Part shown: piece by piece, positions 10,417 to 30,640 of the stretch
Numbering within the stretch: position 1 is the stretch's first letter
How the letters are laid out: the number at the start of each line of letters is the position of its first letter
IMG/VR virus record: IMGVR_UViG_3300046557_000318
Coordinates: 1 to 33,482 of that record
DNA length: 33,482 nt
Direction: 5' to 3' (one strand)
DNA from: a virus
Notes under the pieces: generated by a model
What the model was told of the DNA's origin: nothing
Database searches by the model: none
What the model saw: only the letters and a program-made list of their open reading frames with translations
Position numbers and translations under genes: made by a program

Positions 10417-10788
10417 ATGGGCAAGGATTTCGGCGGCCGCATCATTGCGCGCACTTCGAAGGGAGACACGTTCTCGCTGCGCGGAACGTTGAACGTAAAC
10501 CCGTCCGGCATTTCCACCGCAGCGGTGGTCAACCAGGATGGATCGGTAGACCGGACCGCCACCAACACTGCCTACAGGTTCGAGATCAATTTCGCCGACC
10601 GGGGCGCTGATCTTGATGCCTTGATGAAGGCGGATCGCTTCAACATGACATTCGAGGAGGAATTTTCGGGCGTCACGCACTACTACACTAACGCCTTCTT
10701 TGTCGGCGATCCGGTGATCAACCGACAGACCGGCGAAGTGACCGGCCTGTCCGGCCACTCTGAAAAATACAGCAAGACAGGTGGCTGA
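10417..10788 (+). CDS. Tail tube protein, Mu gpM-like
   Basis: This 123-residue protein would stack into the inner tube inside the sheath. It has an all-beta look (GGRIIARTSKGDTFSLRGTL, AYRFEINFADRG, KADRFNMTFEEEFSG, THYYTNAFFVGDP) and ends in GLSGHSEKYSKTGG, as in Mu gp40/gpM relatives. A GAGAGGA ribosome site at 10401-10407 precedes the ATG. The stop overlaps the chaperone start (TGATG). Confidence 0.93.
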   Translation: MGKDFGGRIIARTSKGDTFSLRGTLNVNPSGISTAAVVNQDGSVDRTATNTAYRFEINFADRGADLDALMKADRFNMTFEEEFSGVTHYYTNAFFVGDPVINRQTGEVTGLSGHSEKYSKTGG

Positions 10789-11090
10789 TGGCGTCGATCG
10801 TCATCAAGCTCAAAAAACCCTACGAGGCCCACGATACGAAATTCTCCACAGTCGAGCTTAGAGAGCCGACCTACAAGGAGATCTATCGCGACGGGCTTGG
10901 TCGGCCTCAGGAATGGCAACCGACGCCAAATGGGCCGATGCAGGTGACCTATCCGGTCGTCGTCGACGCCTATCTGCAAAAGATCATCATTTCGCCGGGG
11001 TACGAATGCCTCGGCGTATTGAACGCGGTGGATTCGCTGAAGCTCGAAAGGGCGGTATGCGATTTTTTTCTGGATACGACGGCGTCCTAG
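10788..11090 (+). CDS. Tail assembly chaperone, zero-frame product
   Basis: This 100-residue protein (MASIVIKLKKPYEAHDTKF..., ELREPTYKEIYRDGL) matches the layout of short tail assembly chaperones located between tube and tape-measure genes in Mu-, P2- and lambda-type phages (Mu gp41, P2 gpE, lambda gpG). These bind the tape measure and help tube polymerisation. It ends at a TAG located inside the loop of a strong hairpin, six codons after a run of seven T bases. That arrangement suggests that a fraction of ribosomes shift frame before the stop and make the longer product described separately. Confidence 0.86.
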   Translation: MASIVIKLKKPYEAHDTKFSTVELREPTYKEIYRDGLGRPQEWQPTPNGPMQVTYPVVVDAYLQKIIISPGYECLGVLNAVDSLKLERAVCDFFLDTTAS

Positions 11091-11206
11091 ACGCCGTCGA
11101 TGTCATGGTCTTTCGTCTTGGTTGGCGTGCAGCTGACATCGAGATGATGACGCCTTCTGCCATCTCCTATTGGGCGCGGCGCTTCATCGAGTTTAGAAAG
11201 TCATAG
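10788..11206 (+). CDS. Tail assembly chaperone, -1 frameshift fusion product
   Basis: A -1 shift on the T run at 11063-11069 would join residues 1-94 of the short chaperone to a 45-residue tail in the overlapping frame (SGYDGVLDAVDVMVFRLGWR... ending RFIEFRKS), giving 139 residues. The tail frame has no ribosome site of its own, is open precisely up to four bases before the tape-measure ATG, and contains WR...MTPSAISYWARRF, resembling the second parts of P2 E+E' and Mu gp41/42 products. Paired short and extended chaperones in a set ratio are a general feature of long-tailed phages. The frame logic is read from sequence; use of the shift is inference. Confidence 0.78.
11046..11099 (+). promoter_or_regulatory. 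-1 ribosomal frameshift signal (SD + slippery site + hairpin)
   Basis: Three elements line up as in the E. coli dnaX signal. GAAAGGG (11046-11052), an internal Shine-Dalgarno-like sequence, lies ten bases before the slippery site. T_TTT_TTT (11063-11069) is in the right phase, since the zero-frame codons are GAT TTT TTT. After a seven-base spacer is a perfect 10-bp GC-rich hairpin: CGACGGCGTC (11077-11086)/GACGCCGTCG (11090-11099) with a three-base loop that contains the first two bases of the zero-frame stop codon. Confidence 0.8.
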
Positions 11207-11209
11207 GTG

Positions 11210-13030
11210 ATGACCAAAGAAATCGAAGCGCGACTGAAAGTATCTGCGGTCGACAAGACCGGTCAGGTCTTTCAGGCTCTCGCGGGAAAGATGGACCAGG
11301 TCAACCACCGCGCGGAAGCGTTGAATAGGCAGCAAGGCATGATGGCCCGTGGTTCTCAAGCTGCCTTTGGCACATTGCTCCGCTTTGCAGCACCTGCAGC
11401 GCTTGCCTACGGCGCCAAGGCGGCGCTCGTCGATTTTGCCGCACTCGACCGTCAGATGACCCGGATAGGCAATACAGCCGGTTCGACTTCGGAGGAAACC
11501 AAAGCTGCATTTGTAACCATGCAGCAGGAGAGCAAGCAGCTCGCGATGCCGCTCAACGAGGCCGTCACCGCGCTCGATACACTGGTGTCCTCCGGCATGA
11601 GCCTGAAGGAGGCGATGGACTTCTTGCCGTCGGTGCTCGCCACGACGCAAGCCTCTGGTGCCGCCGTCGAGGATATCGCCAACACTGGCCTGAAGGCAGC
11701 CTCTGCCCTGAAGATCGAAGCAGGACAGATGCAGCACGCTTTCGATCTGATGGTTGCCAGCGGTCAGTCTGGCCAGTTCGAATTGAAGGATATGGCGGTC
11801 TATATCCCGTCGCTCGCCAACTCGTTCGCCCGTATCGGCTATAAGGGTGAGGATGGCTTAAAGCGGCTTATGGCGGCGCTACAGACCGTCCGCGAAGACA
11901 CGGGCACAGCCGAAGAGGCTGCAAACGACATGGCCAACGTGTTTCAGAAGATGGGGTCTCGCGAGACGATTTCGAACTTCAAGAAATTCGGCATTAACCT
12001 CACGAAGGAAATGGATAAGGCCAAGAAAAAGGGCGAAGACACCATCGACGCCTTCGTTCGGCTCTCCAATAAGGCAGTCAAGGGCGACCTGACCAAACTG
12101 CCGCTGCTGTTTTCTGACAAGCAGGTTCTCGAAGGCATGACGTCGCTGATCACTAGCACTGATCGGCTGACGCACTATTATACCATCCTGAGTGACACCG
12201 GCATCGACGGGACCGTCGCGCGCAACAACATCCGCGTTTTGAACGACACGCAGGCCAGCATCGACCGCCTGTCGAACTCCTACGAGCGGTTGAAGCAGAG
12301 CGCTGGCGAAGCGGTCTCGAAAGTCGCGGTCCCCATCATGGACAAGGTGTCCAATGATCTCGACTACGGCACGGCAGTACGCAAGGGGCTGGAAGGCAAG
12401 GGCATGGGCTATGTTGCCCGCGAAAACTGGATGGCCTTTCACCTGCCGTTGGGCTCGTTTTCGCAGAGCGATGATGCCGATCAACTCGCCTTCCAATCTG
12501 GATACCAGGATCCGGAATGGCTGAAGTCCTATTGGGTGAACCGATACGAGCGTGGCAACATGAAGCCGACCACGGGACGGGCACACATGTCTCGCAGCGG
12601 CACTCCCTCTGGTGGAGTTAGTCGGGATGCCGCAGCGCTTTCGCAAGCCACGGCGGCAGGCATGCCTGGTGCATTGCCCGGCGAAAGCGCGGTGAAGAAC
12701 TTTTTCCGCGTCCCGTCGAAGAGCGAGTTTCAGGATGCTCTGAAAATCGATCTGAAGCCGAGCGCCGATGAGGCCAGCCGGAGCATCGCCGATGGCGGAA
12801 AGCAGGCTGGCGATTCCATCAAGGAGAGCGCCGCCCTGTTCAAGGTTGCCGGCGTCGATATCGGTGCGGCGATTGCCGAGGGGGCCGCGAAGCTGGCTGA
12901 AGCCGCGAAGGCATTCGGCGCCAGCGCATCGATCGCTGCGACCGGTGGCGCGGCAGCACCAAGGGTTAATGCCGATCGGGGACGGACGATGTCGCCGAGC
13001 GTCACTGGCGGCGGCGGTGGTGGGTTCTAG
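11210..13030 (+). CDS. Tail tape measure protein (TP901/Mu gp42-like)
   Basis: This 606-residue protein sets tail length and helps pass DNA during injection. It has an N-terminal helical start (EIEARLKVSAVDKTGQVFQA), the conserved TP901 core block (DFAALDRQMTRIGNTAG, MPLNEAVTALDTLVSSGMSL, GAAVEDIANTGLKAASALKI, HAFDLMVASGQSGQF), an Ala/Ser-rich middle and an alanine-rich C-terminus ending in a glycine run. By the common rule of about 0.15 nm per residue it suggests a tail near 90 nm. The ATG at 11210 is three codon-positions past the end of the shifted chaperone; the GTG at 11207 is an alternative. The last four bases overlap a convergent small gene. Confidence 0.95.
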   Translation: MTKEIEARLKVSAVDKTGQVFQALAGKMDQVNHRAEALNRQQGMMARGSQAAFGTLLRFAAPAALAYGAKAALVDFAALDRQMTRIGNTAGSTSEETKAAFVTMQQESKQLAMPLNEAVTALDTLVSSGMSLKEAMDFLPSVLATTQASGAAVEDIANTGLKAASALKIEAGQMQHAFDLMVASGQSGQFELKDMAVYIPSLANSFARIGYKGEDGLKRLMAALQTVREDTGTAEEAANDMANVFQKMGSRETISNFKKFGINLTKEMDKAKKKGEDTIDAFVRLSNKAVKGDLTKLPLLFSDKQVLEGMTSLITSTDRLTHYYTILSDTGIDGTVARNNIRVLNDTQASIDRLSNSYERLKQSAGEAVSKVAVPIMDKVSNDLDYGTAVRKGLEGKGMGYVARENWMAFHLPLGSFSQSDDADQLAFQSGYQDPEWLKSYWVNRYERGNMKPTTGRAHMSRSGTPSGGVSRDAAALSQATAAGMPGALPGESAVKNFFRVPSKSEFQDALKIDLKPSADEASRSIADGGKQAGDSIKESAALFKVAGVDIGAAIAEGAAKLAEAAKAFGASASIAATGGAAAPRVNADRGRTMSPSVTGGGGGGF

Positions 13031-13257: not shown

Positions 13258-13716
13258 ATGCGGGATTGGAAAAAGACCCTTTTGCCCGCGAGCTTTCGCG
13301 GCGTGCCGTTCTTCGTCGAGTACGAGGACCTGTCGGGCGGTCGCCGCCTTGCCATGCATGAATATGCCGGCGGCGAACAGACTGATGTTGAAGATCTCGG
13401 TGCGTCGACCAGAACCTATGACGTAACAGCCTACACGATTGGGGACACCGCCGATCTCAAGGCGCTTACGCTGCAGTCGGCAGTCGCGATTGCCGGGCCG
13501 GGGCTTCTTGTCCTTCCTATCGACGGAGGATTTCTTGCCCATGTGCAAGGGTTTCGCCGCACGCGGCAGAAAGATAAGGCGGGATACATCGCCTTCGACA
13601 TTACCTTTGTTCCGAAGGCGCAAACGGCTGGCGCAATTCTATCGATCGGCGACGTTAATTCTGCCGTGTCCACCGGCCTGACCGTCGCCTCCGCTGCATT
13701 CGCGCGTCTCTTTTAG
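13258..13716 (+). CDS. Mu gpN-like DNA circulation protein, N-terminal domain only
   Basis: This 152-residue protein begins RDWKKTLLPASFRGVPFFVE, the signature start of the DNA_circ_N domain found in Mu gpN (gp43). It continues with the typical ARRTRTYDV/VTAYTIGDTADL-like section (TRTYDVTAYTIGD) and a beta-rich core (GPGLLVLPIDGGFLAHVQGF). In Mu this domain is the first part of one protein of roughly three times this length that acts at the baseplate/hub. Here it stops at 13716 and a separate gene with its own ribosome site supplies what looks like the remainder. AAGGGA (13245-13250) precedes the start. Confidence 0.85.
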   Translation: MRDWKKTLLPASFRGVPFFVEYEDLSGGRRLAMHEYAGGEQTDVEDLGASTRTYDVTAYTIGDTADLKALTLQSAVAIAGPGLLVLPIDGGFLAHVQGFRRTRQKDKAGYIAFDITFVPKAQTAGAILSIGDVNSAVSTGLTVASAAFARLF

Positions 13717-13727
13717 AGGATTTTAGT

Positions 13728-14354
13728 ATGGCGGCGGACAAGACGACAATCCTGTCGTGGCTGGCGGATCTGTCCGCTGCCATCGTGACTGACCCTGAAG
13801 ACCTGGCGGACGTATCGAGCCGCATTGCCGTTGCAGCAAGTCTTGACGCTGCTGCCTTCGCAACGGAGGCGTTGTCGCTGACGCGGATTGTAGCTGAGAG
13901 CGTGAGTGACAGCGCAGGCTTTGATCGCTGGTCTATCGCTCAGACCGTTGCTGCCGGCGACACGCGGGATGCAATGTCCGTTCTTCTCTCGGCGGCGCTT
14001 TCCATAGCTGGCGGTCGGGTTGATTGGCCGTCGCGGCCACAAGCCGGCAAGGCACGGTCGAGGATCGTAGATTCTGGCGACGTAGCGCTTGCTGTGGCGT
14101 CGAACATGGGTGGCGATGGTGCCGATCTCTATGGCTGGCTGTCCAGCCTCACGGATGTCGCCAGTCGCCTGATATCCGATCTCGCGGCCAATGCTGTTCC
14201 GATCGTGAAGGTCATGACCGGCCTTTCAATGCCGTCAACGGTCCTTGCCTATCAGCTCTATGGCGATGCCAACCGCGCCGAAGCTCTCGTCGACATTTCA
14301 TCGTCGGCGACACCGCTGGTAATGCCGACACTGTTCGACGCTCTCGCGTCCTGA
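13728..14354 (+). CDS. Probable C-terminal half of split gpN
   Basis: This 208-residue, alanine-rich helical protein has no signature of its own until the end, where STVLAYQLYGDANRAEALVD resembles the conserved end of Mu gpN-type proteins (a VxAYrLYGDa-type motif before the terminus). It is in a different frame from the preceding gpN N-terminal domain, separated by 11 bases, and has its own AGAGGA (13715-13720) seven bases before ATG 13728. The simplest reading is a gpN gene divided into two translated parts that assemble together. A sequencing frameshift is less likely because a proper ribosome site is present at the joint. Confidence 0.72.
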   Translation: MAADKTTILSWLADLSAAIVTDPEDLADVSSRIAVAASLDAAAFATEALSLTRIVAESVSDSAGFDRWSIAQTVAAGDTRDAMSVLLSAALSIAGGRVDWPSRPQAGKARSRIVDSGDVALAVASNMGGDGADLYGWLSSLTDVASRLISDLAANAVPIVKVMTGLSMPSTVLAYQLYGDANRAEALVDISSSATPLVMPTLFDALAS

Positions 14355-19528: not shown

Positions 19529-20523
19529 GCTTTGTCGCTGAAGGCGATAGCATCGATTATGGCTATCTACTCACCACTCCATCAACGCAGTGCACATGGG
19601 CGCAGCTCTATGCCTCGTCGGCTATTACCTCGATGGGGGTCGGCAGCTATTACAACTTCGCCACCACGGGTGCGGTTGTCTACAGCGGCGCGACCGGCGG
19701 TCTCATCAGCATCTATGACCGGTACATGGCAAACGTCTATCCGCATCGCCCAACGGCAAATGGCGGCGACGGTGGCGCCGTTGCCATCCTGTTCAACAAT
19801 GGCGGGATCAATGATCTCGCCTATAACCGAACAGCTGCGCAGCTCCTTGCCGATATGCTTGCCTATAACCAGCGCGCCAAGGCAGATGGCTTTACGATTT
19901 GGGCAGATACGTTGCTGCCATCGCATGCCATGACGACCCTGGAAACCCGACGCCTGCAAGTCAATGCCGCAATCCTTGCCGGTCAAGTCGGGGCAGATTT
20001 TACCTTCAACAGCGCGCAAGCCATCCCGGATTGCTGGGATACCAGTGTATATCAGCCGGACGGGACGCACCCTGTTCTGAAAGGACATACGCTAAGGGCA
20101 GCCTATATGGCCGGGAAAATCGGCTCATCGACTCCCGATACCTGGAATGGGCAGGTCGCTTTCGCAGCTAGCGCGGCGGCGGGCGCGTCGGCATTGTCGG
20201 AAATCATCGGCTACAATTGCCCGAGGCTCAATCGAGGCGATGCGTTCAACAGCTCGACAGGACGTTTTACCGCCCCGAAGGCCGGAACGATCGATCTCAG
20301 CTTTATTGGCATCAACCAGACCGGGACAGGGCAAGGGAAACTGGAAATCCGCAAGAATGGTCTGGCGATCGGTTCGGCTGCTTTCGCAATGGATTCCTAC
20401 GACGTCCTTACGGCCGCAGCCTTGACCAACGTCGAGCCAGGAGATGTCATTTCCTGCTGGATGACCTATGGATCACTGCTTCCAAACTGGCCGCAGACGG
20501 TGTTTATCGGGCGGATGCTCTGA
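19525..20523 (+). CDS. Tail protein with SGNH esterase domain and C1q-like end
   Basis: This 332-residue protein has the four SGNH-hydrolase blocks in order: block I GDS (EGDSIDYGY, about residues 7-9), a glycine in the TTGAVVYSG region, block III GIND (LFNNGGIND), and block V DGTH (YQPDGTHP). These supply the Ser, Gly, Asn and Asp-His residues. The family removes acetyl groups from surface polysaccharides, so this is probably the receptor-processing tail component. The last third (FNSSTGRFTAPKAGTIDLSF, IRKNGLAIGSAAF, VEPGDVISCWMTYG) is C1q-like, as in the preceding fibre. The 3' end overlaps a convergent acyltransferase gene. Confidence 0.86.
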   Translation: MSFVAEGDSIDYGYLLTTPSTQCTWAQLYASSAITSMGVGSYYNFATTGAVVYSGATGGLISIYDRYMANVYPHRPTANGGDGGAVAILFNNGGINDLAYNRTAAQLLADMLAYNQRAKADGFTIWADTLLPSHAMTTLETRRLQVNAAILAGQVGADFTFNSAQAIPDCWDTSVYQPDGTHPVLKGHTLRAAYMAGKIGSSTPDTWNGQVAFAASAAAGASALSEIIGYNCPRLNRGDAFNSSTGRFTAPKAGTIDLSFIGINQTGTGQGKLEIRKNGLAIGSAAFAMDSYDVLTAAALTNVEPGDVISCWMTYGSLLPNWPQTVFIGRML

Positions 20524-21625
20524 CGGGCTTGTGTAGCAGGGAGACAAGTTTATTGAACACCGGGCGTTCAATTCCGTAGTAAGCGGCTGAAGCCACGGCA
20601 ATTGCCACCCCGATGAAAACGATCCTCATCATCTCGCCTTGGAAGGGTGTCTCGACCCGATAGGCTGATATCGCCAGTGGGTAGGCGAGGCACCCCAATA
20701 CCAGCCCGTGTGTCATGTAGATCGAGTACGAAATCTTGCCGAGATAATCGAGGGCGCGGCTTGTGAGAGTAGCGCGTGTCTTGCCCGCAAGGTCATTGCT
20801 GGCGGAAGCGTAGATCACGGCGATGAAGCCGATGAAGGCAACGCAGGTCATGGCGGTCGGGTAGGATTCGGGAAAGAGCCCTGAGAGAAGAAGGAGCGGT
20901 GCGGCTACGGTGATGAGCAGAACCGTGTGGACGGAATACACTGCTCGCGCCCTGTTCAGGACAAGAAATCTCGAAGCCAACGCACCGGCTGCATATTCCG
21001 GAAGCCTTGAGATCGGAAAGAATTCGAAGAAATTAGGCCCCATCCTCGGTGTAAGCGCGTATTGGGAAGCCCAATAAGCGATTACGACCCCGACAAAGGC
21101 GATGGCGGTGGACCGGAGAGACAGCTTACCGATCGCGGGCAGCATGATTGGCGACAGAACATAGAAAAACATCTCGCACGACAGCGTCCAGCTTATGCCG
21201 TTCCAAGATTGCCGGATGCCTGGCGTGTCATACCACCAGGCCTGCAACAGCAACGCCGACCACCTGATTGAATTCTTCGACCCTTCAAAGCCCGCGATCG
21301 GGGCAGAGAATTTCCAGAAGATGAAAACGGCAAAAAATAATGTCACCAGCGACAGGGGATAGATTTTAGCCACCCGTCGATACAGGAACTCGAATGTTCC
21401 GTGCCGCTTCGATGCCCATCCCCATTGATTGACGAAGCCGGAAAGGCAGAAGAAAAACGAGACTCCGAGGTATCCGTACGAGCCAAGGCTACCCGTCGCC
21501 ACGTAGTGCGGCCAGAACTGCAGACTGTGATAAACGGCGACAGTTAGGGCAGCGACAGCACGAAGTCGCGTAAGGCTATGAAGATTCGTCCGTGTCACGG
21601 TCTCTGTGATAGGCCGAAAGTTCAC
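20504..21625 (-). CDS. Membrane O-acyltransferase, acyltransferase-3 (OafA) family
   Basis: This 373-residue integral membrane enzyme should transfer acetyl (or other acyl) groups to extracellular polysaccharide. The family motif R-x10-H is present (RAVAALTVAVYH, Arg22 and His33), with the FFFCLSGF segment, about ten hydrophobic helices and a YSIYMTHGLV region. It is on the opposite strand to the surrounding late genes, so it may be expressed during lysogeny and alter the lipopolysaccharide or capsule, as known serotype-conversion acetylases do. GTG at 21625 is supported by overlap with the stop of the upstream small gene (GTGA). Substrate is unknown. Confidence 0.92.
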   Translation of the reverse strand: MNFRPITETVTRTNLHSLTRLRAVAALTVAVYHSLQFWPHYVATGSLGSYGYLGVSFFFCLSGFVNQWGWASKRHGTFEFLYRRVAKIYPLSLVTLFFAVFIFWKFSAPIAGFEGSKNSIRWSALLLQAWWYDTPGIRQSWNGISWTLSCEMFFYVLSPIMLPAIGKLSLRSTAIAFVGVVIAYWASQYALTPRMGPNFFEFFPISRLPEYAAGALASRFLVLNRARAVYSVHTVLLITVAAPLLLLSGLFPESYPTAMTCVAFIGFIAVIYASASNDLAGKTRATLTSRALDYLGKISYSIYMTHGLVLGCLAYPLAISAYRVETPFQGEMMRIVFIGVAIAVASAAYYGIERPVFNKLVSLLHKPVRASAR

Positions 21626-28134: not shown

Positions 28135-29013
28135 CTACAGATTTGCGTAGCGCTGCGTGTTGAAGCGGTCTGCGACCATGCGGCCGGCGTTCTCGGTGTG
28201 AACGTATGTCTCTAAGAATATCTTAGACGACTTCCACCGGCCGGCATCCATCGCCGTCTTGATGCCGATACCCAAATTCATAGCGTTGGTCGCGAACGAA
28301 TAACGACCGACCGAATGAGATGACTTGTATGTGATACCGGCTCGCCTGCAGACTGCCTCGATCCTCTCATTGACTGCCCATCGACACTTATAGCGAAAGA
28401 CCCGCTCGCCTTCCTTCACATCCAAATTATAAAGCCGATACATCAGCTCATCAGTGAGATAGGCCGTTGCCATGACATCAGTCTTTGTCTTTACCAGCAG
28501 CGCGGTGCGATGACGAAAATCGATGTGCTTGCCAAGAACGTTGATAGCCTCGGAAACTCTGGCTGCGGTATGGTTCATGAAGATGGCCAATGCCGACAGG
28601 TGAAAAAGGTGATCGCGGTCAGCCTGGTTGATGAAAGCTGATAGCCAGGCGCCGTCGACCGGAGAGTGCCTCGTCGATCGAGGAGTGCGAAAGCTACGGA
28701 CGCGCATGTGGTGACACCATCCGAGCTCGTGCGCATGGTAGATCACTGCCCTGGCTGGCGTGATGCCTTGCCGGTTGCGGGTTGATGCCATGTGGTGCGG
28801 GTAAAGATCGAGGGCCATCTGCTTGATCTCGGCTGGCGCGATCGACTGGACGGCCCTGCCCCTGAAATACTCAATGGCCTTGTCGAGGTATCGCGATGAG
28901 CCGCCTTGGCGAACATAGCTCTCAGCAGCTTCTTGAAAAGTGTGGCTGAGCCTGCCGCCATCGATGACGACGGGCGCCGCGCCGCCCCACGGCTGGAATG
29001 TGTGATCGTTCAT
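28135..29013 (-). CDS. Tyrosine recombinase (second one in window)
   Basis: This 292-residue site-specific recombinase has the catalytic residues: Arg152 in TAARVSEA, Lys175/177 in VKTKTD, His233 and Arg237 in SSHSVGRYSFATN, Trp260 in AGRWKS and nucleophile Tyr270 in ETYVH. The H-x-x-x-R spacing of the motif is unusual but occurs in a rhizobial family written (H)DAGRHSFATN, so it may be active. There is an N-terminal SAM-like helical domain (about 25-110). GGGGGAAG precedes ATG. It lies 137 bases beyond the 3' end of the main integrase. It might be a prophage-associated mobile gene or a resolvase for genome dimers. Confidence 0.88.
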   Translation of the reverse strand: MNDHTFQPWGGAAPVVIDGGRLSHTFQEAAESYVRQGGSSRYLDKAIEYFRGRAVQSIAPAEIKQMALDLYPHHMASTRNRQGITPARAVIYHAHELGWCHHMRVRSFRTPRSTRHSPVDGAWLSAFINQADRDHLFHLSALAIFMNHTAARVSEAINVLGKHIDFRHRTALLVKTKTDVMATAYLTDELMYRLYNLDVKEGERVFRYKCRWAVNERIEAVCRRAGITYKSSHSVGRYSFATNAMNLGIGIKTAMDAGRWKSSKIFLETYVHTENAGRMVADRFNTQRYANL

Positions 29014-29076: not shown

Positions 29077-29268
29077 GTGGGACAGGCCGAACAAAAAGCA
29101 TAATGATCTTGTACAGCTAGTATTTGTCCCACACCCGGCCAAGCTATTGATTACTCTCGCTTGCCGGACACCTCTTCTGGGCACCATTCCATTTTTTCAA
29201 CGTTGTTTTCGTTGATCTTTTCATCAGATTTTGTCCCACTTTTTTCAACCCCCTCGGGGTGTGGGACA
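29077..29268. repeat. Four GTGGGACA motifs in the integrase 3' region
   Basis: GTGGGACA occurs at 29077-29084 and 29261-29268, and its complement TGTCCCAC at 29125-29132 and 29232-29239. Three copies continue as GTGGGACAAA. They lie across the end of the integrase gene and the gap before the second recombinase. Regularly arranged repeats next to int are typical of arm-type sites of attP. No core or crossover sequence can be named from this window. Confidence 0.4.
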
Positions 29269-30371
29269 AAATCTGTGCTCGTTTGTTCCCGCGACAGCTT
29301 ATGCATCGCGCCGCCGGCAAGCTTCTTGCGGTTCGCTGACTTGGTATAGAGCGTCGTCTGCTGCTTCGTCGTCCATCCGAAGATGGCCATCAGCTCATCG
29401 TCGGTCGCACCGTTTTCAGCCGCCATCGTGGCGCCTGCCTTGCGCAAGCCGTGCGACGAACAATGGAACAGCTCCGCCTCGTCGCACCAATCCCGCATCT
29501 TGTTGCCAAGACCGTTCACGCTGAACGGCTTGCCATATTCTGTGACCATGTAGGTCATCTGCTTTAATGGCTGGCTGTCCAGGCGCTGTTGCAGTGCCGA
29601 CAGGACCGGAATCTGAACAACCACCCCGCTCGACTTCTTCGTCTTACCGGGCCGGATTGTGAGCCATCCGTCCCGGACATGCTGGCGGCCCATGATCGCC
29701 AACTCCTGCAGGCGCAATCCGGTATACAGCGCCATGCTCATATACAAGTTCGCCTTTGTGCCTGGCGGGTGCCTGGCTTCGAACTGTTCAACCTCGGCAA
29801 TCGTCCATGCGTGGAAGCCGTCGCCACTGTCCATTTTCTTGATGCGTAGAGCGGGGTTGCGGTCGGCAATGTCGCTCTCCATCGCCCATCCGAACATGGC
29901 CGATAAATATTTCACGAGATTGTTTCGAGCGCCGGCCGTCTGGCGCAGCTCATCACGGATCTCGATGACGTGTTTCTTTTCGAGCAGCTTGAATGGAATA
30001 TCACCGCGCCGAGTCTTGCTCTTCGGTGTCGTGCTCTCGCAGATCTCTTCCATCAACCGAACCCGCCTAGCGAGTTGGTCAAGCGCCATCGTACCCACCG
30101 CGCGCTTTTTGTATTGCTGCACCAGCCATTGGAACGAACCCTCGGCCGCCTTGCGATCCAACAGTTCGATCTTCGGCGCGTCGCCTGGTTTGACGTAGGG
30201 GATATTGAGACGAGCGCAGGAAACCTCGTTCTCAAACGCTTCCGTGCCAGGCTCTTCGCGTAGCCTGACCTTGCTTCGACCCGGCGCGCGGAAATAGAAC
30301 CGCGCTTCCTTGGTGCGGAAGTCGCGATCGAGTGATACGCCCTTCGGTAGTTTCGGATACATATTGCTCAT
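29151..30371 (-). CDS. int: Integrase, tyrosine recombinase
   Basis: This 406-residue protein is a canonical phage integrase. It has an N-terminal arm-binding region (PKLPKGVSLDRDFRTKEARF), a core-binding helical domain (about 75-180), and a catalytic domain with Arg220 in LYTGLRLQE, Lys243-246 region PGKTKKSS, His307/Arg310 in SSHGLRKAG, Trp333 in FGWTTK and Tyr342 in TTLYTK. It inserts and removes the phage at att. ATG 30371 overlaps the excisionase stop (TGATG); three extra upstream codons are possible. The Ser/Glu/Lys-rich C-terminal tail after 360 contains the inverted repeat described separately. It ends the minus-strand operon. Confidence 0.96.
   Translation of the reverse strand: MSNMYPKLPKGVSLDRDFRTKEARFYFRAPGRSKVRLREEPGTEAFENEVSCARLNIPYVKPGDAPKIELLDRKAAEGSFQWLVQQYKKRAVGTMALDQLARRVRLMEEICESTTPKSKTRRGDIPFKLLEKKHVIEIRDELRQTAGARNNLVKYLSAMFGWAMESDIADRNPALRIKKMDSGDGFHAWTIAEVEQFEARHPPGTKANLYMSMALYTGLRLQELAIMGRQHVRDGWLTIRPGKTKKSSGVVVQIPVLSALQQRLDSQPLKQMTYMVTEYGKPFSVNGLGNKMRDWCDEAELFHCSSHGLRKAGATMAAENGATDDELMAIFGWTTKQQTTLYTKSANRKKLAGGAMHKLSREQTSTDFVPHPEGVEKSGTKSDEKINENNVEKMEWCPEEVSGKRE
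29225..29275. repeat. 15-bp perfect inverted repeat inside integrase 3' end
   Basis: CAGATTTTGTCCCAC (29225-29239) is repeated inverted as GTGGGACAAAATCTG (29261-29275), with a 21-base centre that itself contains a small hairpin (ACCCC/GGGGT). The whole lies in the last 42 codons of the integrase gene. As RNA it would be a stable stem; as DNA it resembles a pair of recombinase-binding sites in opposite orientation. Confidence 0.72.
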
Positions 30372-30640
30372 CAATCCCAAGGATTGCCCGCAGCGTGCGG
30401 TTCGTCAAGCGGATCATCGTCCACCCGCACTCTGTGCGGGATCATGCGGAAGGCGGCGGTCAATTCGGATACATCCCATAGCAGCCTACCGCCGAGCGCC
30501 CGTGGGGACGGCATAGAGCCCGCCTCGACGCATCGATCGAACATCGTCGCGCTGATGCCTATCAGTGCGGCGGCCTGCTCGCGGCCGACACCAAGCGGAG
30601 GCAGAGACAGGGGAAGAATATCGCTGCGTTGCGCCCTCAT
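30371..30640 (-). CDS. xis: Excisionase-like HTH protein
   Basis: This 89-residue protein has the HTH of the MerR/excisionase group: LGVGREQAAALIGISATMFD followed by RCVEAGSMPSPRALGGRLLW and a wing-like end. Such proteins steer integrase towards excision and bend att DNA. Its location directly before int, with TGATG overlap, fits this. The acidic C-terminus (RVDDDPLDEPH) is short. An AlpA-type transcriptional activator is an alternative. It overlaps the HNH gene by four bases (ATGA). Confidence 0.82.
   Translation of the reverse strand: MRAQRSDILPLSLPPLGVGREQAAALIGISATMFDRCVEAGSMPSPRALGGRLLWDVSELTAAFRMIPHRVRVDDDPLDEPHAAGNPWD

Follow-up and report, generated by a model that had tools for sequence, protein, structure and literature searches.

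Does the tail assembly chaperone gene of this phage give rise to a second, longer protein by ribosomal frameshifting, and which of the elements around its T run belong to the signal? These questions were addressed in the window, the whole 33,482-base virus record, whose source is a rhizobial phage. The original prediction had described three elements, namely an SD-like GAAAGGG, T_TTT_TTT in phase, and a perfect hairpin of 10 bp in whose loop the zero-frame stop begins. All of these were recovered at the predicted positions (Table 1).

Gene Context of the Chaperone Locus

The tail genes of the window were arranged in the order sheath, tube, chaperone, tape measure and Mu-like baseplate genes. 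The chaperone gene, located between the tail tube and tape measure genes, matched PF10109 (Phage_TAC_7) with an E-value of 2.8e-5 and 24.5 bits, which is 0.5 bits below the cut-off of 25, and it matched phrog_24302 with an E-value of 7.7e-37. Among 15 sequences compared, 13 matched PF10109 at E ≤ 1. The locus thus comprises a TAC_7-type chaperone directly ahead of the tape measure gene, for which GTG 11207 and ATG 11210 are the start options.

Table 1. Features in and around the chaperone gene (positions are those of the window).
Feature	Position	Strand	Evidence or remark
Tail tube gene	10417..10788	+	PF10618, E = 6.1e-9; upstream neighbour
Zero-frame tail assembly chaperone gene, 100 aa, P2 gpE/Mu gp41-like	10788..11090	+	PF10109, phrog_24302
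SD-like GAAAGG, candidate upstream stimulator	11046..11051	+	11 nt before the T run
Slippery heptamer T_TTT_TTT, predicted −1 shift site	11063..11069	+	In phase; kept in relatives
−1-frame extension, 45 aa, T/E′-like domain	11069..11206	+	Predicted fusion after Phe-94, giving 139 aa
Perfect 10-bp hairpin, candidate downstream stimulator	11077..11099	+	−18.8 kcal/mol
Tape measure protein	11207..13030	+	phrog_34270, E = 3.3e-175; PF10145, E = 3e-24

Elsewhere in the window, the Mu gpN-like baseplate hub (phrog_184, 411 positions) was divided into two genes at 13258–13716 and 13728–14354, which corresponded to its N- and C-terminal parts, respectively. A similar gene pair was present in phage PPF1 (L001, 6038–6496 and 6507–7130). 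Two tandem integrase-like ORFs, each matching phrog_1, were found on the minus strand (28135–29013 and 29151–30380). An O-acetyltransferase (O-antigen acetylase-like) gene was located beyond the tail genes on the opposite strand (20504–21625, minus), and it is likely a cargo gene.

The Slippery Site and the −1 Frame

The chaperone gene ended in GAT TTT TTT CTG ... TAG, and its seven T's (T7) were in phase as T_TTT_TTT. This was the sole run of at least seven T's in the window, in which 0.9 was expected. Phe codons in the window genes were TTC in 78 cases and TTT in 38, indicating that TTC was preferred. The zero frame stopped at TAG 11088–11090 and the −1 frame at TAG 11204–11206, and the two frames overlapped for only 21 nt past the slip site. 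Three bases, GTG, which form the possible start at 11207, separated the −1-frame stop from ATG 11210. The reading frames therefore confirmed that the shifted frame would encode a 139-residue fusion that ends just before the tape measure gene.

Relatives were collected from the annotated phages PPF1 and RR1-A, IMG/VR, GTDB genomes and Rhizobiales genomes, and the comparison set consisted of 31 distinct relatives (42% identity and lower) and the window. The same Phe-Phe codons were found in phase near the zero-frame end in all 32 distinct sequences, as T_TTT_TTT in 24 and as T_TTT_TTC in eight; in distant relatives the six T's were followed by C with the phase unchanged. The position of the zero-frame stop varied between 15 and 126 nt beyond the slip site. 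The protein encoded by the −1 frame was conserved across relatives, and this frame was open into a conserved domain that ended beside the next tail gene. The extension had a weak match to PF06528 (Phage_P2_GpE) in six of 15 sequences (best E = 0.0048), and the window's own extension, searched alone against Pfam, had no match. A TGA in the −1 frame was located directly ahead of the T run in four relatives (L002, L016, L031, and L034), which indicated that in these the −1 frame can be entered only at the run. The point of the shift was thereby pinned, and the conserved slip site and −1-frame domain strongly supported the frameshift that had been predicted for this gene. On this comparative evidence, the gene almost certainly undergoes programmed −1 ribosomal frameshifting of the kind known from P2 E/E+E′.

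Some other features of the relatives were observed around the chaperone gene. The zero frame extended 60–126 nt beyond the slip site in many of them (e.g., L005 376–741, L016 3001–3396, and L012 3001–3366), and thus the T domain is double-coded there. A gene annotated as tail completion/Neck1 was located between the chaperone and tape measure genes in RR1-A (L002, 6250–6804), and a different gene seemed to begin after the chaperone in L005, L006, L007, L009, and L016 too; the window had no such gene. The records of PPF1 (L001, 3792–4112) and RR1-A (L002, 5817–6137) contained the short chaperone only. The practical consequence is that the −1 fusion is absent from the annotations of such relatives.

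Among 398 surveyed Pseudomonadota genomes carrying PF10109, 29 TAC_7 loci were readable, and 19 of them had an in-phase T_TTT_TTN near the zero-frame end, with G, C, A or T as the last base. In phage P2, the −1 shift occurs on TTTTTTG at the corresponding place (PMC3091744), as is also annotated in the P2 record. Together with the variable last base in the survey, this identified the window site as a P2-type site with another last base.

The T run could also act at the level of transcription, where RNA polymerase would add or drop bases on it, and ribosomes reading the altered mRNA in the ordinary way would produce the fusion. It is a homopolymer, and bacterial genes slip on homopolymers longer than these seven T's (PMC5009743); however, programmed sites of this kind are often homopolymers of at least eight bases (PMC3711429). 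Hairpins in nascent RNA exert their effect from an upstream position (PMC5009743), whereas the hairpin in the window lies downstream. The run was not kept as a homopolymer, since distant relatives had T6C, and in TAC_7 genes elsewhere the base after T6 was G, A or C, with the phase kept. A last base that is free while the phase is maintained argues for tandem tRNA slippage and against polymerase slippage. Transcriptional slippage was rejected because of the relatives with T6C or T6G, and we regard it as extremely improbable.

For the programmed −1 frameshift, the following mechanism was proposed. Most ribosomes would read through the run to TAG 11088 and produce the 100-aa chaperone. In a few of them, two tRNA-Phe molecules, one in the P site and one in the A site, would slip back by one base from TTT TTT (11064–11069) to TTT TTT (11063–11068), and the −1 frame would then be read to TAG 11204 to give the 139-aa fusion. 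Candidates for stimulating the slip are GAAAGG, which could pair with the extended anti-SD of rhizobia, and the hairpin. In lambda, the counterparts of the two products are gpG and gpGT, and on this analogy binding of the tape measure protein would fall to the short form and recruitment of tube subunits to the long form.

The Upstream SD-Like Element

The GAAAGGG stretch occupied positions 11046–11052. Under the assumption of a rhizobial host, its GAAAGG can pair over 6 bp with the CCUUUC of the Rhizobium 16S rRNA 3′ tail (GGATCACCTCCTTTCT), because this tail reads CCTCCTTTCT. A putative SD-like element was thus present 11 nt upstream of the slip site. CCUUUC is absent from the 16S tail of E. 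coli. With the extended rhizobial tail, no other anti-SD site in this upstream portion of the chaperone gene was as strong, and its match exceeded that of about 98% of synonymous recodings (P = 0.02). When the generic anti-SD CCUCCUUU was used, the window site was only in the top 6% and therefore unremarkable, which means that the SD claim depends on the extended rhizobial tail. The codon pair GAA AGG, which includes the rare Arg codon AGG (12/192), recurred in L009 and L016, which belong to two other lineages. Many relatives were without any good anti-SD match.

A different role for GAAAGG would be that of a ribosome-binding site for the −1-frame ATG at 11057–11059, from which a free 49-aa T-domain protein would be made instead of, or besides, the fusion. 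The motif ends 5 nt ahead of this ATG, which lies just before the T run. However, the start was not conserved. The nearest relative (L003) had CTG in place of the ATG, a −1-frame start within 30 nt upstream was absent in 24 of the 32 sequences, and a −1-frame stop stood directly ahead of the run in the four relatives mentioned above. Internal initiation would also leave the conserved T run unexplained. Initiation at ATG 11057 was rejected on the grounds of its missing conservation, and we consider it very unlikely.

The Downstream Hairpin

The arms of the hairpin were CGACGGCGTC (11077–11086) and GACGCCGTCG (11090–11099), its loop was CTA (11087–11089), whose TA opens the zero-frame TAG, and a spacer of 7 nt separated it from the T run. 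Its folding z-score was −3.6 to −3.7, the latter value being that against neighbouring stretches. In the whole window, two perfect 10-bp inverted repeats with loops of 3–8 were found vs. 0.6 expected, and the chance that such a repeat begins 5–9 nt past a given site was about 1e-4 by composition. However, when the amino acids of both frames were fixed, about 10% of the synonymous variants folded at least as well as the window hairpin (P of about 0.1), so that coding could explain much of it. The window hairpin is hence not significant once both reading frames are taken into account. The hairpin was also considered as a terminator and rejected in this role, since the T run lies before it and none follows it on either strand.

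Among the relatives, the hairpin was perfect only in the window and in L003 (93% relative), partial in L005–L007 (64–66% relatives), and absent in L001, L008, and L012. Two-sided changes occurred in only one of its ten pairs, which was no better than in shuffles. In L009 and L010, where the zero-frame tail is short and the codons are free, 0 and 0.8% of the sampled synonymous variants, respectively, folded as well as the natural sequence, and L009 contained a long stem, different from that of the window, 6 nt after the T run. These two cases go beyond what coding would produce, and it is therefore plausible that part of the family is under selection for a downstream structure of some kind; for the window hairpin such selection is not proved. 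In the distant relative L044, a structure of −24.2 kcal/mol, unrelated in sequence to the window hairpin, was observed right after the T7 run.

Role of the Candidate Stimulators

The original prediction had stressed that all three elements known from dnaX occur together and had proposed a search for their conservation in related phages. The three did occur together in the window, and this was rare among its relatives. When the extended rhizobial anti-SD was used, SD and hairpin were both clear in just two sequences, the window and L003, and L009 added a third case via a different structure; with the generic anti-SD none of 52 sites had both SD and structure above the threshold. The slip site was kept in 32 of 32 sequences, but the hairpin and the SD were not conserved alongside it, and the third element is the hairpin that lost its significance given coding. 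The stimulators are clade-specific and unproven candidates.

Here, two explanations were proposed for these elements. The first is that coding produced the hairpin and the SD-like stretch incidentally, and that the shift would take place through T_TTT_TTT alone, as in P2. It agrees with the P value obtained under both frames and with the several relatives that share the slip site and have neither element, and neither in P2 nor in its relatives from Burkholderia was a structure found (PMC3091744). Against it stand the folds of L009 and L010, in which the zero frame ends early, and the recurrence of GAA AGG with its rare codon in L009 and L016. We give this explanation a little less than an even chance. 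The other, which is put forward tentatively and given about one chance in three, is that a complete dnaX-like signal arose in the clade of the window around the T run of P2 type, which is older. The upstream stimulator of this signal would pair with the 3′-extended alphaproteobacterial anti-SD (GAAAGG:CCUUUC) and not with the usual core, GGAGG, and its hairpins would have been gained afresh in separate lineages, with the slip site staying unchanged.

The high shift rate that had been expected from the three elements was unsupported. According to a review, U_UUU_UUU shifts far less readily than A_AAA_AAG in E. coli, and P2-type shifting is 2–3 times the low level of lambda (PMC5009743). For another phage chaperone cluster, a shift of 6–7% was measured (PMC3711429). 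The stimulators may only compensate for a mediocre slip site, and a high rate need not follow. A fixed slip site with candidate stimulators that come and go makes the rhizobial phages a natural series, which allows one to ask what stimulators contribute at a constant slip site.

Comparison with Known Systems

The E. coli dnaX site resembles that of the window in its upstream SD-like element, slippery heptamer and downstream stem-loop, with similar spacings. However, its heptamer is A_AAA_AAG instead of U_UUU_UUU, it lies in an unrelated gene, and the candidate stimulators of the window vary between relatives. The lambda G/GT system also has a chaperone with a −1-frame T domain and a presumed control of tail assembly by the ratio of the two products; its slip sequence is different from that of the window. 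A literature search for a phage site with a T7 run found nothing.

The gp41 region of Mu has the same order of sheath, tube, chaperone and tape measure genes, and the baseplate genes of the window are Mu-like. No in-phase XXXYYY heptamer was found in Mu gp41. Mu had been cited as a parallel for the −1 shift, but a −2 shift has been reported for it (PMC5009743), and for this reason P2 and not Mu is the right comparison.

The P2 E/E+E′ system, as known from the annotation of the P2 record and the literature (PMC3091744; PMC5009743), shares with the window the TAC_7 family, the position at the chaperone end before the tape measure gene, the tandem slip on T_TTT_TTN and the −1 direction, both predicted for the window, and the fusion products are similar in size (142 aa in P2 and 139 aa predicted in the window). 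They differ in the last base of the heptamer, which is G in P2 (Phe-Leu) and T in the window (Phe-Phe). Moreover, no downstream structure has been reported for P2, whereas in the window a strong hairpin follows the run and an SD-like stretch matches the 16S tail of rhizobia. The site in the window is thus an ordinary P2-type member with a somewhat richer set of candidate stimulators.
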